A stretch of 52,985 bases of DNA from Geoalkalibacter sp. (GTDB lineage Bacteria; Desulfobacterota; Desulfuromonadia; Desulfuromonadales; Geoalkalibacteraceae), in the NCBI RefSeq assembly GCF_030605225.1, contig NZ_JAUWAV010000031.1, positions 1-52,985 on the forward strand, in the 5' to 3' direction. A model generated the notes under the pieces. It made no database searches. It was not told the origin of the DNA and was given only the letters and a program-made list of their open reading frames with translations. A program made the position numbers and the translations under genes. Positions 2 through 49,180 of this stretch are shown here, one piece after another. Within the stretch, counting starts at the first letter, position 1. The number at the start of each line of letters is the position of its first letter.

Positions 2-259
2 CATCTGCCCGAACTCGATCTGTGCATTTTCCAGCGCCGCGGCCCGCTGCCGCTTCTGCGCTATGCAACGGGCATCGCCCGCGGCCGCCACCTGGAGTTG
101 CCCGACGTGCTCTACCGCAAAGCCCAACAGGTCAGCCTGCGTTGCGCGAAGCCGCTGCCCGTGCAGGCCGACGGTGATCTCATCGGCCGCCTGCCCATGG
201 ATTTCTCCGTGGCGCGCGATGCCCTGACCATTCTCAGGCCCCCAGGAGGTATCCCCTGA
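2..259 (+). CDS. Lipid kinase (diacylglycerol kinase family), C-terminal part
   Basis: The window opens inside a reading frame giving the last 85 residues of a protein that ends at TGA 257-259. The segment VQADGDLIGRLP followed by an ALTILRP-type strand is typical of the C-terminal beta-domain of YegS/BmrU/DgkB-type lipid kinases, which phosphorylate diacylglycerol or related lipids at the membrane. The nucleotide-binding domain lies outside the window, so the exact substrate cannot be judged. The stop codon overlaps the proposed CTG start of the next gene, so the two are probably translationally coupled. Confidence 0.7.
   Translation, partial: HLPELDLCIFQRRGPLPLLRYATGIARGRHLELPDVLYRKAQQVSLRCAKPLPVQADGDLIGRLPMDFSVARDALTILRPPGGIP
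244..250 (+). promoter_or_regulatory. Ribosome binding site AGGAGGT that fixes the CTG start at 256
   Basis: AGGAGGT, a full Shine-Dalgarno match, lies five bases before CTG 256-258. No ATG, GTG or TTG occurs in this frame until TTG 364, so the site supports initiation at CTG. Confidence 0.75.
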
Positions 260-1428
260 AAGTCGCCATCGTCAGCGAAACCTTTCTGCCACAAATCAAC
301 GGCGTCTCCCAGACCCTCAACCGCCTGGTCGAGCACCTGCTGGCCCAGGGCGACAGCGTCCATTTGCTGATTCCCCGCTATCGCGAGAACCCGCCGACGG
401 AAAAACCCGGCCTCGGCATATCCATGTTTCCTGCCCTGGCCCTGCCCAACTATCCGGAGATTCTTCTGCCTTTCGCCACGCCGGGGCGCCTGCGGCGGCT
501 GTTGCGCGCCCAGGCGCCCGACGTGATGCACATCGCCACCGAAGGCCCCCTGGGCTGGGCCGCCCTGCGCGCGGCGCGCAGCCTCGGCCTGCCGGTGATC
601 AGCTCCTACCACACCAACTTTTCCCAGTATCTGGGCGCCTACCGCCTGGGCTTCGTCGAGGGGCCAGCCTGGCGCTACCTGCGCTGGTTTCACAACCGCA
701 CGGCGCGCACCTTCTGTCCCACCGCCTCAATCCGCGACCTTCTGCGGGCCAAGGGTTTCGCGCGGGTCGGCATCTGGGGACGAGGTGTCGACGGCGGGCG
801 TTTCCACCCGGCCAAGCGCGATCCGGAACTGCGCCGCAGCCTGGGTTTTGCGCCCGAGGATCGGGTGTTCGTCTACTGCGGCCGTCTCGCCGCGGAAAAA
901 AATCTGCCCCTGCTGATGAGCGCCTTTCGCCATCTCGCTTCGCCCAGGGCGCGGCTCCTGCTCATCGGCGACGGCCCCCTGCGCGAGCAACTCGCCGCCC
1001 AGGCCGACACCCGGGTGGTCTTCACCGGCTACCGCCAGGGCGAGGAACTCGCCCGACTCTACGCCGCCGCCGACGTCATGACCTTTCCCTCCCTGACGGA
1101 AACCTTCGGCAATGTGATGCTCGAAGCCATGGCGGCGGGTCTGCCGGTAGTCGGCTTCAATGTGCCCGGCCCCAAGGACGTCATACGCCCGGGAGAAACC
1201 GGACGGCTGCTCGAAACCATCGACGCCGCGGCCTTGGCCGGCGCCATGGCGGAGCTGATGGAAGACGAGCAGGAGCGCCGCCGCTTGGGCGTCAACGCCC
1301 GCGCCTACGCCTTGCGCCAGAACTGGTTCGCCATCAACGACGTGGTACGCCAAGCCTACCAGGAGCTATGCCGGGAGCGCCCCGCGAAGCCGGGAGCCCA
1401 ATCCTCCCTGGCGCCCCAGGGGTCCTAA
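256..1428 (+). CDS. GT4-family glycosyltransferase with CTG start
   Basis: This is a 390-aa GT-B fold glycosyltransferase. It probably adds a hexose from a nucleotide sugar to a lipid acceptor at the membrane, like MgtA or digalactosyldiacylglycerol synthases. With the CTG start the protein opens KVAIVSETFLPQINGV, the conserved first Rossmann strand and acceptor loop of GT4 enzymes. The first ordinary start codon (TTG 364) would remove 36 residues including this motif. The EX7E donor-site motif is at residues 282-290 (ETFGNVMLE). The gene overlaps the stop of a lipid kinase and precedes a PAP2 phosphatase, which suggests glycolipid or phospholipid metabolism. Family is secure; acceptor and sugar are unknown. 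Confidence 0.85.
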   Translation: MKVAIVSETFLPQINGVSQTLNRLVEHLLAQGDSVHLLIPRYRENPPTEKPGLGISMFPALALPNYPEILLPFATPGRLRRLLRAQAPDVMHIATEGPLGWAALRAARSLGLPVISSYHTNFSQYLGAYRLGFVEGPAWRYLRWFHNRTARTFCPTASIRDLLRAKGFARVGIWGRGVDGGRFHPAKRDPELRRSLGFAPEDRVFVYCGRLAAEKNLPLLMSAFRHLASPRARLLLIGDGPLREQLAAQADTRVVFTGYRQGEELARLYAAADVMTFPSLTETFGNVMLEAMAAGLPVVGFNVPGPKDVIRPGETGRLLETIDAAALAGAMAELMEDEQERRRLGVNARAYALRQNWFAINDVVRQAYQELCRERPAKPGAQSSLAPQGS

Positions 1429-10455: not shown

Positions 10456-11688
10456 CTATTCGGCCTTGACGTCTTTCTTCGCCAGACCGAAGGCTTCGTG
10501 CAGCACGCGCACCGCCAGTTCGGTGTACTTGCTGTCGATGATGCAGGAGATCTTGATTTCGCTGGTGGAAATCATGTGGATGTTGATGCCCTCCTGGGCA
10601 AGGGTCTGGAACATCTTGCTCGCCACGCCGGAATGGGAGCGCATGCCGACACCGACGATGCTCACCTTGGCGATGTTCTCGTCGCCCTGCACGCCGCTCG
10701 CCCCCACATCCTTGGCGGTTTCCTCGACGATCTTGATGGCCTTCTTGTAATCGGCCTTGGGCACGGTGAAGGTCAGATCGGTGAAACCCTCATGGGAGAC
10801 GTTCTGAATGATCATGTCCACGGTGATGTTGGCGTGGGACAGGGGCGAAAAAATCTGCGAAGCGATCCCCGGCTTGTCGGGCACCCGAAACACGGAGATC
10901 TTGGCTTCGTCTTTATTGTAAGTAATTCCCGAAACGAGAACGGCTTCCATATCGGCATCCTCCTTCATCACCAGGGTTCCCGGATTATCGTTGAAACTCG
11001 ACCGCACATGAACCACCACGCCATATTTCTTGGCAAACTCCACCGAGCGGATCTGCAACACCTTGGAGCCAAGGGATGCCATCTCCAGCATCTCGTCGTA
11101 GGACACCTTGTCCATCTTGGACGCCTCGGGCACGATGCGCGGGTCGGTGGTGTAGATGCCGTCGACGTCGGTAAAGATCTCGCAGACGTCGGCCTTGAGA
11201 CCGGCCGCCACCGCCACCGCCGAGGTGTCGGACCCACCGCGGCCGAGGGTGGTGATGTTGCCTTCGCGGTCGATGCCCTGGAAGCCGGCCACCACGATGA
11301 TGGTGCCGTTTTTCAGATCCTCGCGGATTCTCTTGTCGTCGATCTTCTCGATGCGCGCCTTGGAAAAGGCGCTGTCCGTCACGATCGGAATCTGGAATCC
11401 GCAGTAGCTCTTGGCCTTGTACCCCATGGACTGCAGGCACATGGCCAGCAGGGCGATGGACACCTGCTCACCGGTCGACACCAGCACATCGTACTCGCGT
11501 TCGCTGGGGAACTCGCACATTTCGTTGGCCAGCGCCACCAGCTTGTTGGTTTCGCCGGCCATGGCCGAAACCACGACGATGACATCGTTACCCTCATCGT
11601 AGGTTCGGGCGACCCGCCGCGCGACGTTGCGAATGCGTTCGATGGTGCCGACCGAAGTCCCTCCGTACTTCTGTACCACCAAGGCCAT
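10456..11688 (-). CDS. lysC: Aspartate kinase
   Basis: This 410-aa aspartokinase phosphorylates aspartate in the first step to lysine, threonine and methionine. The N-terminal kinase domain shows [20 protein letters not shown] and [13 protein letters not shown]. Two ACT domains follow (from about residue 265), with [12 protein letters not shown] and [16 protein letters not shown], which bind feedback amino acids. It is the usual single-function form. It lies between lpdA and cimA, so aspartate-family and isoleucine genes are adjacent. A GC hairpin lies about 25 bases before its start. Confidence 0.95.
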
Positions 11689-11714
11689 AGCTGTCTTCTC
11701 CTCCGTTGTTGAAA

Positions 11715-11732
11715 ACGGGGCGCATGCCCCGT
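11715..11732. repeat. GC hairpin upstream of lysC
   Basis: ACGGGGC and GCCCCGT enclose GCAT. It shares CGGGGCGCA with the palindrome at 10371-10396, suggesting related elements placed before both lysC and cimA. Confidence 0.6.
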
Positions 11733-11748
11733 GATGCCTGTCGTCGGA

Positions 11749-23894: not shown

Positions 23895-23971
23895 TGGTGG
23901 CGGTGCAGAGATTTGAACTCCGGACACTGCGGATATGAGCCGCATGCTCTAACCAACTGAGCTACACCGCC
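23895..23971 (-). tRNA. tRNA with CAU anticodon, probably elongator Met
   Basis: A full cloverleaf of 77 nt with encoded CCA. The acceptor stem is GGCGGTG/CACCGCC, with a standard D arm and the T loop TTCAAAT. The anticodon loop CTCATAT lies in a TGCGG/CCGCA stem and gives anticodon CAU. The GGCGGTG acceptor resembles the Bacillus elongator tRNA-Met that I recall. It lacks the C4 and C5 of E. coli tRNA-Ile2 that TilS recognises, so Met is likelier than Ile2, though Ile2 is not excluded. Confidence 0.88.
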
Positions 23972-24010: not shown

Positions 24011-24088
<78 letters not shown>

Positions 24089-43652: not shown

Positions 43653-44282
43653 TTACTTGGAATAGAGCTCGACGACCAGCTTCTCCTGGAACGCAGGAGT
43701 GGTAAGCTCTTCACGAACCGGCAGCGTCTTGAGGGTGCCCTTGCAGGCGGCGCGATCCAGTTCGAGCCAAGAAGGAACGCCGCGGCGCATAACCCCGTCA
43801 AGGGCTTCGTTGATCCGCGCGACCTGGCGGCTCTTCTCGCGCAGTTCAACGACATCGCCGGGACGCACCAGGAAGGACGGGATATTCACCTTGCGGCCAT
43901 TGACCAAAAAGTGATTGTGCCGCACCAGCTGGCGGGCTTCGTTACGCGAGGTGGCAAAGCCAAGCCGGTAAATCACGCTGTCAAGCCTCCGCTCGAGAAG
44001 CACCAGGAGATTTTCACCCGTAATGCCCTTCATGCGGTCAGCCTTCTCGAAGTAGGAGCGAAACTGCCCTTCGAGAAGACCGTAGGAGCGCTTGACCTTT
44101 TGTTTCTCGCGCAGCTGAATTCCGTAGTTGGACACCTTCACCCGCCCCTGGCCGTGCTGGCCGGGGGCGTAGTTGCGGCGTTCAACAGCGCACTTATCCG
44201 TATGACATCTGTCCCCCTTGAGGAACAGTTTGGTCGCTTCGCGACGACAATAGCGGCAGACAGCACCGGTATATCTGGCCAA
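43653..44282 (-). CDS. rpsD: 30S ribosomal protein S4
   Basis: A 209-aa primary 16S-binding protein with an S4 RNA-binding domain ([41 protein letters not shown]). The N-terminus has four cysteines, C9, C12, C26 and C31, the zinc-binding form. S4 often represses its own operon. It follows rpsK and precedes rpoA. Confidence 0.97.
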
Positions 44283-44302
44283 GGGTCTTCCTCCTTCTTG
44301 GT

Positions 44303-44698
44303 TTAAACTCTTCTACGTTTGGGGGGGCGGCATCCGTTGTGCGGGATCGGGGTGACATCCTTGATCAATGCGACGCTGAACCCGGCCGCCTGCAAAGCGC
44401 GCACCGCCGATTCGCGACCCGAACCGGGGCCCTTGACATAGACCTCAACCGAACGCATTCCGTGTTCCTGAGCCTTTTTCGCCGCGGTTTCGGCGGCGAT
44501 CTGGGCGGCAAAGGGCGTGCTCTTGCGCGAACCCTTAAAACCCATGCCACCGGCGGTGGCCCAGGAAATCACGTTGCCCGCCATATCGGTGATCGTGACG
44601 ATGGTATTGTTGAAGGTGGCCTGAATATGGGCGACACCTTTAGCAATATTCTTTTTTTCTACCTTCTTTTTGATCGTTTTCTTGCCGGGCTTAGCCAT
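44303..44698 (-). CDS. rpsK: 30S ribosomal protein S11
   Basis: A 131-aa protein with [30 protein letters not shown] and the conserved end [18 protein letters not shown]. The lysine-rich start ([15 protein letters not shown]) is typical. It lies 11 bases after rpsM. Confidence 0.98.
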
Positions 44699-44709
44699 GG
44701 TACCTCCAA

Positions 44710-45078
44710 TTATTTCTTCTTACCGGCAACCGTCTTCCGGGGTCCCTTGCGGGTCCTGGCGTTGGTTTTGGTCCTTTGCCCACGAGCGGGGAGCCCACGG
44801 CGATGGCGCAGGCCGCGATAGCAGCCCAAATCCATAAGCCGCTTGATGTTCATGGTCACTTCGCGCCGCAGATCACCTTCAACCTTGTATTCACGGTCGA
44901 TAATTTCACGAATCTTGGCGACTTCGGCTTCCGCCAGATCGTCCGTGCGGGTATTGGGATCCACCCCGGCCTTGGCCAGGATGTCATTGGCAACGGTTCT
45001 GCCAATGCCGTAAATGTAGGTCAATGCGACCTCCATGCGCTTGTTGCGGGGCAAGTCTATTCCAGCGATGCGTGCCAA
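44710..45078 (-). CDS. rpsM: 30S ribosomal protein S13
   Basis: A 122-aa protein starting [26 protein letters not shown] and ending in the basic tail [24 protein letters not shown] that reaches the P-site tRNA. It follows rpmJ by 21 bases. Confidence 0.98.
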
Positions 45079-45099
45079 TGTCCGATCCTCCTGGTCCTG

Positions 45100-46690: not shown

Positions 46691-48001
46691 TTAACCGCGG
46701 CGACCCTTGAGGGTCACCCCCTTCATGAAACCCTCATAGGAACGACTGACCAGATGGGCTTCAATTTGAGCGGCGGTATCAAGCCCCACGGCGACGACAA
46801 TCAACAGAGAGGTTCCACCAAAAAAGAAGGGAACATTGAATTGCCCGATCAAGACCGTCGGCAACACGCAGACTGCGGAAATATACATGGCCCCGGCAAA
46901 AGTCAACCGCGACAAGACCGTATCAAGAAAGTCGGCGGTTTCTTTCCCGGGACGAATACCGGGGACATAGCCACCCTGCTTGCGGACATTGTCGGCGACA
47001 TCCACAGGATTAAAGGTGACAGCCGTGTAGAAATAGCAGAAGAAAATGATAAATGCAACATAAAAAAGGTTGTACACCACATGGTCAGGGCTCATTACCG
47101 AGGCTAGCTTCTGCACCCAGGGCAGGTCGACCAAGCTGGCGACGGTCGCCGGGAACATGATAATGGAACTGGCGAAGATCGGCGGAATGACCCCGCTCAT
47201 GTTCACCTTGAGAGGCAGATGACTGGTTTGCCCGCCGTAGTTGCGCATGCCGACCACGCGGCGCGCATAATGAATGGGCACCCTGCGCTGGCCGCGCTCC
47301 ATGAAGACGATGGCCCAAATAACCGCCACCATGACCAGTCCGATAAAAATCATCGCCATGGGCGAGAGAGCGCCGGTGCGCAACAATCGCAGCGTATTAA
47401 CCAAGGCGGAAGGTATGGTCGCCACGATACCGGCAAAAATGATCAACGATATGCCGTTGCCAATACCGCGCTCGGTGATCTGCTCACCGAGCCACATGAT
47501 AAATGCGGTTCCTGCCGTCAAGGTCAGCACGGTCATGAGGATGAAGCCAATGCCGGGTTGCGACACGACCAACTCCCCGGCCGGACCACGCATGGTTTGC
47601 AAGCCGACGGCGATGCCGGCGCCCTGAATGATGGAGAGAACAATCGTGCCGTATCTGGTGTACTGAGTGATCTTTTTCTGCCCCTGCTCGCCTTCCTTGG
47701 AAAGTTTTTCGATAGGCTCGAACACCACTTTGAGCAACTGCAAGATAATCGAGGCACTGATATAAGGCATGATGCCCAGGGCGAAAACAGTCATGCGCTC
47801 CAGGGCCCCTCCGGTAAAGGCACTGACGAGACCAAGCAACGTTCCTTCGGTTCCCTCGAAGAAACCAGCCAGCACCTGACTGTCGATCCCGGGAATAGGA
47901 ATATGACATCCGACCCGATAAACCACCAGGACGCCGAGAGTGAAAAGGATTCGCCGTCTCAACTCCGGAATGCTGAAAATGTTTTGCAGGCTCGCGATCA
48001 A
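46691..48001 (-). CDS. secY: Protein translocase subunit SecY
   Basis: A 436-aa, ten-helix channel protein of the Sec translocon. The N-terminus is IPELRRRILFTLGVLVVYRVGCHIPIPGI, and cytoplasmic loops include RRVPIHYARRVVG and the KQGGYVPGIRPG segment between helices 8 and 9. It lies one base after rplO. Confidence 0.98.
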   Translation of the reverse strand: MIASLQNIFSIPELRRRILFTLGVLVVYRVGCHIPIPGIDSQVLAGFFEGTEGTLLGLVSAFTGGALERMTVFALGIMPYISASIILQLLKVVFEPIEKLSKEGEQGQKKITQYTRYGTIVLSIIQGAGIAVGLQTMRGPAGELVVSQPGIGFILMTVLTLTAGTAFIMWLGEQITERGIGNGISLIIFAGIVATIPSALVNTLRLLRTGALSPMAMIFIGLVMVAVIWAIVFMERGQRRVPIHYARRVVGMRNYGGQTSHLPLKVNMSGVIPPIFASSIIMFPATVASLVDLPWVQKLASVMSPDHVVYNLFYVAFIIFFCYFYTAVTFNPVDVADNVRKQGGYVPGIRPGKETADFLDTVLSRLTFAGAMYISAVCVLPTVLIGQFNVPFFFGGTSLLIVVAVGLDTAAQIEAHLVSRSYEGFMKGVTLKGRRG

Positions 48002-48002
48002 G

Positions 48003-48443
48003 TTAAATTACCTCGGCTTTACCGCCGGCGCCTTCGATTTTCGCCAGGGCCGACTTGCTGAATTTGTGAGCTTGAACCGTCAAGGCAACGCTCAGCTCGC
48101 CATCGCCGAGAACCTTGATGCCGTCGCCGATCTGCTTGATGAGCCCGGCCTGCATCAAGGCCTGCCCATCAACAACACTGCCTGCTGCAAAGATGTCCAG
48201 CTGACCAAGATTGACCAGAGAATAAATTTTCTTGTTCAGGGAAGTGAATCCCCGCTTGGGCAGACGCCGTTGAAGTGGCATCTGACCACCTTCAAAACCG
48301 GCCTTGACGCCACCGCCGGCCCGAGCCTTTTGCCCCTTATGCCCCTTGCCGGAAGTTTTACCCGTGCCGGAGCCATGGCCGCGGCCGATTCTCTTGCGGT
48401 TTTTCGTGGAGCCCAGAGCGGGCCGCAGATCACTCAGATTCAT
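48003..48443 (-). CDS. rplO: 50S ribosomal protein L15
   Basis: A 146-aa protein with the typical glycine-rich start [41 protein letters not shown] and the core [18 protein letters not shown]. It follows rpmD and precedes secY. Confidence 0.98.
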
Positions 48444-48661: not shown

Positions 48662-49159
48662 TTAGGCCGATTCCTCAGCAACAACCCCACGGCGCGCGAG
48701 TACAACCTCAGCGCTCTTGAGTTGAGAAAGGGCGTTGATGGTGGCTTTGACCACGTTATGCGGATTGTTGGAGCCCAAACACTTCGACAGCACGTTTTCA
48801 ACCCCTGCCGCTTCAAGGATAGCCCGAGCGGCACCGCCGGCGATAACCCCCGTGCCTGCCGAGGCCGGCTTGAGCAAAACCTTACCGGCGCCGAATTTCC
48901 CAAGCACGTCGAAGGGGATGGTGCCGCCGGCCATGGGAACCTTGATTAGATCTTTCTTGGCCCGCTCGACACCTTTGCGGATCGCCTCGGGAACCTCCTT
49001 GGCTTTGCCCAGACCGACACCAACGCATCCCTGTCCGTCGCCAACGACCACCAAGGCCGAAAAGCTAAAGCGGCGGCCACCTTTGACCACCTTGGCGTTA
49101 CGGTTGATATGGATAACCCTGTCGGTCAGATTCATTTCGTTCGCATCAATGCGTTGCAA
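48662..49159 (-). CDS. rpsE: 30S ribosomal protein S5
   Basis: A 165-aa protein with the double-strand-RNA-binding-like N-terminal region [28 protein letters not shown] and the C-terminal [31 protein letters not shown]. It lies 21 bases after rplR. Confidence 0.98.
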
Positions 49160-49180
49160 GGGCGTTCTCCTTTTCTTTTC

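Follow-up and report, generated by a model that had tools for sequence, protein, structure and literature searches.

A probable CTG-initiated glycosyltransferase gene at the presumed site of a former ATGA overlap in Geoalkalibacter

The glycosyltransferase gene and its start region

The window, that is, the whole 52,985-nt stretch of DNA that was analysed, is an entire contig of the 3.7 Mb draft genome of Geoalkalibacter sp. and starts at the contig end. This end truncates the first gene, the 3' end of which (positions 2–259, + strand) we identified as coding for a YegS-type lipid kinase (PF19279 YegS_C, 39 bits, cut-off 27); its stop codon, as read from the sequence, is the TGA at 257–259 (+). 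A CTG codon at 256–258 (+) overlaps this stop as CTGA and opens the frame of a GT4-family glycosyltransferase of the GT-B type (GT; 256–1428, +; 390 aa), which is followed by a PAP2-superfamily phosphatase gene with an ATG start (1454–2032, +; PF01569, 91.7 bits, cut-off 27.2). Upstream of the CTG lies the Shine-Dalgarno (SD) sequence AGGAGGT (244–250, +), whose first codon, AGG (244–246), stands at the place of the ATG of relatives, and the spacer (251–255, +) measures 5 nt after AGGAGGT or 6 nt after AGGAGG.

Translation from CTG 256 would yield a protein of 390 aa opening with LKVAIVSETFLPQINGVS. No ATG, GTG or TTG occurs in frame between the closest preceding stop, a TGA 27 codons upstream, and the TTG at 364–366 (+), an internal leucine codon that is CTG in the congeners G001, G002 and G003; with all seven start codons of translation table 11 admitted, CTG is the only one from that upstream stop through codon 1. 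TTG 364 is codon 37, and a start there would therefore delete 36 residues. The initial annotation, which had proposed CTG 256 as the start, located the SD, the five-base gap, the CTG and the overlap with the upstream TGA correctly, and our frame scan agrees with it on the lack of a standard start before TTG 364 and on the 36 residues at stake. Its further claim, that reading from the CTG restores a GT4 opening, is borne out by the 390-aa frame and by the starts of homologues, 69 of 103 of which coincide with the CTG position.

The GT carries the domains of GT4 enzymes, PF13439 (112.3 bits, cut-off 28.5) and PF00534 (135.8 bits, cut-off 26.4). Its AlphaFold2 model (pLDDT 91.3), in which beta-1 spans residues 2–6, alpha-1 residues 16–30 and beta-2 residues 34–40, has the GT-B fold, with TM-scores of 0.79/0.82 for BshA (PDB 6n1x) against the model. 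Foldseek ranked BshA and MshA highest and placed PimB' and PimA further down; BshA, MshA and PimA, which have the GT-B fold, are among the PDB matches of the GT by structure and by sequence, at about 20% identity. None of the 21 NCBIfam models listed scored above its cut-off, the top one being NF053787 (N-acetylglucosaminyl phosphatidylglycerol synthase; 185.2 against 480 bits). Judging from the lipid kinase gene before it and the PAP2 phosphatase gene after it, the GT likely functions in membrane glycolipid synthesis.

For 45 of the 60 conserved window ORFs, chosen and entered by hand, a start codon common to congeners was assigned (33 ATG, 7 GTG and 5 TTG), with 4 of the 45 not common to three congeners. 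AGGA, GGAG or GAGG lies upstream of 34 of these genes and the full AGGAGG upstream of 2; likewise, AGGAGG is found 4–9 nt before 2 of the 634 internal CTG codons of the same genes. The predicted SD duplex of the GT gene (−13.2 kcal/mol) is equalled or beaten by one of the 45 genes (median −8.1), and that of G002 (−10.3) is unexceptional, being reached by 10 of the 45 window genes; these energies use the canonical anti-SD, from which the host's own may differ. The canonical sequence was assumed because the 16S 3' end was not found: in G000 the RF00177 search for 16S came up empty, and an exact-pattern search of G000–G003 did not find the canonical 16S 3' tail, though G001 is one contig. The rRNA is perhaps masked or located outside the searched sequence.

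Conservation ahead of the first standard start was assessed within a bound of 36 codons, the length of the GT stretch in question. The test started from 51 window ORFs biased at the third codon position; aligned codons and mismatches sufficed for 16 of them, the other 35 falling outside it. Coding-type conservation was seen in two of the 16, namely the GT, where third positions account for 38 of 62 mismatches (0.61), and the kinase truncated by the contig end (0.62); the position-3 shares of the remaining 14 ranged from 0 to 0.42. When two non-syntenic regions were compared (G003:C2:400–553 kb and G001:C1:3323–3479 kb), 11 of 857 ORFs had a hit and none was coding-like. Two other censuses were dropped: the one by alignment length ahead of the first standard start picked out many genes, since similarity at the DNA level continues into overlapping neighbours, and the one by codon position over all ORFs was noisy from shadow ORFs and gave the GT only 0.44, because the stretch took in the kinase overlap. 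An aspartate-kinase-like ORF (10456–11748; AA_kinase and ACT), considered as a second case, proved to have a normal ATG at codon 21, preceded by a conserved GGAGGAG.

Homologues, congeners and the origin of the CTG

Three sets were searched for homologues: 58 genomes (the own genome and relatives), 136 from the order, again counting the own genome (22 with E ≤ 1e-90), and a named genome collection (80 of 112 loci kept). Of 147 loci, 118 matched at E at most 1e-20 and 115 were used, giving 103 distinct starts. The start codons of homologues, which the initial annotation had suggested inspecting, support its reading: in 69 of the 103 the very codon that aligns with the CTG is an ATG, GTG or TTG (51 ATG), and in 100 a standard start lies between codons −25 and +3. 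The exceptions are the window, G002 and L025; in the last, the domain sits within a much longer open frame (826 codons), so that this place is no start. CTG itself occurs at the homologous position in 10 of the 103 starts, but eight of these have a standard start 2–16 codons upstream, and their CTG is therefore most simply leucine. The window gene shows the pattern of a CUG-initiated gene, with an in-frame CTG at the homologous start and no ATG, GTG or TTG nearby. Homologues lacking the first 36 residues, which the initial annotation had held to contradict its reading, were not seen among the 118 loci, since 115 align from residue 12 or earlier; the three others (L024, L047 and L094), left out of the start count, align only past residue 12 because their stretch ends there. 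As a separate observation, an in-frame stop falls inside the matched part of the homologue of Syntrophomonas sp. UBA4807 (L065, 2501–3649).

The nearest relative, Geoalkalibacter sp. CSMAG_1185 (G002), encodes on contig NZ_JAUVWH010000078.1 a protein 82% identical to the window GT. It has the same CTG, an identical AGGAGG (6/6) and equal spacing, with four of the six spacer bases changed; the SD thus lies at initiation distance in two species, as in CUG-initiated genes with a conserved SD. In G002, no ATG, GTG or TTG is present in frame from codon −25 to +84, the next standard start lying 85 codons in and a GTG 78 codons upstream in open frame. Its other upstream candidates, ATA at −2 and ATT at −18, are like the GTG at −78 not common to the window. 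The G002 junction reads AGGAGGATAGCC-CTG, and its kinase ends ...TILRPPGG* at a TAG that ends two bases before the CTG; together with the CTGA of the window, this gives both species the close stop and start of coupled gene pairs. We also observed that the GT frame of G002 (L009/L038) has no stop for 320 codons upstream; it crosses the kinase gene, which is read in another frame, and includes GTG codons at −78 and −245, which makes this upstream open frame a trap for gene finders.

The junction could be aligned in four congeners without length change. In G001 and G003 it reads GAGGCCCGC-ATGA-..., with ATG as the GT start and TGA as the kinase stop (...TILRPA*), and an ATGA of this kind is also found in the outgroup G030; in all three, the ATG is at codon −4. 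The window reads AGGCCCCC-AGGA-GGTATCCC-CTGA, so that codon −4 is AGG and the kinase C-terminus is extended to ...TILRPPGGIP*, against ...TILRPA* in the two congeners. The SD occupies the place of the ancestral ATG, a point that was not part of the initial annotation. Within the changed stretch, 7 of 12 bases differ from G001, as against 5 of 36 just upstream.

In a tree built from 25 protein sequences selected manually, 23 of them different, the window groups with G002 (support 99/98) and G001 with G003 (97/94); support is 92/91 at the fork uniting the four congeners and 100/98 where G030 joins them. Given this grouping and the ATG in G001, G003 and G030, an ATG at −4 is most simply ancestral and the CTG derived once. 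By parsimony, a single event, ATGA to AGGA, most simply abolished both the old start and the kinase stop, and CTG, until then an ordinary leucine codon, would have become the start. The tree also contains a homologue from a Lentisphaeria MAG (L091, 2501–4116; 56% identical) among the Desulfuromonadales rows, either by horizontal transfer or because of a mixed bin.

Because the loss of the ATG by parsimony precedes the split of the window species and G002, their divergence reports on selection after the loss. With our own Nei-Gojobori script, the 390 codons gave dS 0.50, dN 0.12 and a ratio of 0.25, and codons 2–36 a ratio of 0.13 (9.3 synonymous and 4.7 nonsynonymous changes). Relative to G001 and G003, third-position differences in codons 2–36 amount to 14/23 and 13/23, with nine nonsynonymous codon differences each. 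These sequence comparisons indicate that the GT gene stayed under purifying selection after the ATG was lost. The gene, the SD and the spacing have been kept, the codon CTG in two species only.

Alternative readings and the proposed mode of initiation

The GT4 gene is very probably translated from CTG 256. A start at TTG 364, giving a protein of 354 aa, is highly improbable: this is the first standard start in frame, and PF13439 is still recognised in the truncated frame (90.0 bits), but the codon is CTG in all three congeners, and G002 has its next standard start only 85 codons in. Furthermore, such a start would delete beta-1, alpha-1 and part of beta-2 from a model of pLDDT 91, together with the columns T9, G16 and L24, which are invariant in 21 homologues, and would leave codons 2–36 untranslated despite their dN/dS of 0.13. 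Just as improbable is a −1 slip from the kinase frame at CCC-TGA, which would produce a kinase–GT fusion and dispense with CTG initiation. There is a run of C before the TGA, and the frame required is indeed −1; SD-like elements occur upstream of known recoding sites, and one lies upstream of this slip site as well. However, the slip site is not the same in G002, where the kinase stop is a TAG ending two bases before the CTG, and the congeners and the outgroup have separate genes with ATGA overlaps.

Equally little probability attaches to another non-standard start just upstream, for example AGG 244, which is the ancestral start position, since CTG is the sole table-11 start in the upstream frame, the G002 candidates are not common to the window, and the SD spacing suits CTG. 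That the gene has no start and is decaying would fit the loss of the ATG and the weakness of CUG, but is a shade less probable again, as the frame is intact in both species (390 and 408 codons) and the ratio of 0.25 was obtained over a divergence wholly post-loss by parsimony. Least probable of all is an assembly error at base 256: the window does begin at a contig end, but the same codon and SD recur in the record of a different species with an 82% identical protein.

Initiation at CTG 256 would have arisen and would operate as follows. The ancestral start of the genus would be the ATG four codons upstream, which overlapped the kinase stop as ATGA. In the ancestor shared by the window species and G002, ATGA would have changed to AGGA, whereby start and kinase stop disappeared together; this would have left the first half of AGGAGG, with the next leucine codon, CTG, becoming the start, and the order of substitutions from ATGA to AGGAGG is one that we infer. 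In the present gene, the strong AGGAGGT five bases upstream would recruit ribosomes to CTG 256, probably mostly ones that have just terminated kinase synthesis at the TGA overlapping it (translational coupling), and CUG would be read by fMet-tRNA with a first-position mismatch. Both the SD and the delivery of ribosomes by the kinase stop would compensate for the weak CUG. What carries this reading is the geometry, the conservation in two species, the polarity of the tree under parsimony and the purifying selection after the loss, all taken from sequence; initiation at CUG, coupling and low expression we infer.

ATGA-type stop–start overlaps are associated with termination–reinitiation coupling in the relevant part of PMC6728339. 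In predictions for the isolated RNA, the mean unpaired probability was 0.21 for the SD and 0.10 for the start in the window (0.36 and 0.25 in G002); such predicted pairing speaks against efficient stand-alone initiation and fits coupling better than free initiation. As to a possible unusual decoding, each of four genomes contains GGGCTCATAACCC twice; we take this to be the anticodon arm of the initiator tRNA, and by sequence it appears to be the usual one in all four. The window itself contains tandem tRNA-Met genes (23895–23971 and 24012–24088, both −), the second with an initiator-type anticodon arm.

Known CTG starts and weak start codons in the genus

One study reportedly measured all 64 start codons, and the figures given here are quoted through later papers. 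As the initial annotation had it, CTG starts are very rare in bacteria: in the passages concerned, the share of CUG among bacterial start codons is given as 0.024%, one of the two papers stating explicitly that annotated starts are meant (PMC11497404, PMC11983097). Passages of the former also cite CUG as giving 0.86% of the AUG output and describe fMet-tRNA on CUG as forming a weak first-position pair, observed with a tRNA variant (PMC11497404). With this output, expression of the GT may be low.

The closest precedent is the FIB rep gene of the F, pO157 and P307 plasmids, for which passages of PMC11983097 report a CTG start, abolition of replication upon changing CTG to CTC, an earlier N-terminal analysis cited by the authors, and a GTG 14 codons downstream wrongly given in most GenBank records. 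According to the same passages, it resembles the window GT in having the CTG beside a good SD (GGAGG in pO157), but is a plasmid replication gene proven by mutation, whereas the GT is a chromosomal enzyme gene identified by sequence evidence; in contrast to FIB rep, the ancestral ATG of the GT is visible in relatives. Evolutionary switches from AUG to CUG, with the idea of SD compensation, were described by Belinky et al. 2017, who in the part of the paper concerned count 2 among 61,358 ancestral AUG starts (PMC5622118). There, the start codon itself was substituted, whereas in the window the start appears shifted 12 nt downstream to a former leucine codon, with the SD on the old ATG. Starts from CTG are further reported, in the relevant passages, for an orphan rhs toxin ORF of Salmonella, at a small reporter level (PMC7043789), and for ano of E. 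coli O157:H7, where rpsL of Deinococcus deserti is cited too (PMC5960689); rhs and ano are bacterial CTG-start genes like the GT, but unrelated and likened to it by CTG use alone. A method in PMC13245402 admits CTG as a near-cognate codon, with no CTG start listed in the passages concerned.

Many of the works found on CTG or CUG starts are eukaryotic or viral. A literature search pairing Geoalkalibacter with start codon returned no paper, and none on the start of this GT gene was found in searches that did not use gene names. CTG starts in bacteria are thus rare but documented, and the GT would by its sequence be one more, with clear comparative evidence for its origin.

Most gene finders do not allow CTG, and the 0.024% figure depends on gene finders. 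Tools restricted to standard starts could give the window GT without its first strand and helix, and the G002 GT either lacking 85 residues or carrying 78 extra ones. Conserved CTG starts whose ancestral ATG persists in congeners let true CTG starts be recognised by comparison, and they amount to a natural experiment in which a weak codon may be offset by a strong SD and a stop overlap. More tentatively, and less probably than not, one T-to-G substitution within an ATGA overlap, which would destroy start and stop, seed an SD and shift the junction 12 nt onto a CTG kept across speciation, might regularly create such starts, under-annotated as they would be, in GC-rich genomes tolerating non-AUG starts.

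Weak starts were also found elsewhere in the window. Four genes (43653–44312, 44710–45099, 46691–48007 and 48662–49180, all −), which encode SecY and the ribosomal proteins S4, S5 and S13, have apparent TTG starts, and these are TTG in all four Geoalkalibacter species compared; in S5 and S13, an in-frame ATG lies 8 and 14 codons further in. Weak starts on normally highly expressed genes are surprising and may reflect a relaxed choice of start codons in the genus.
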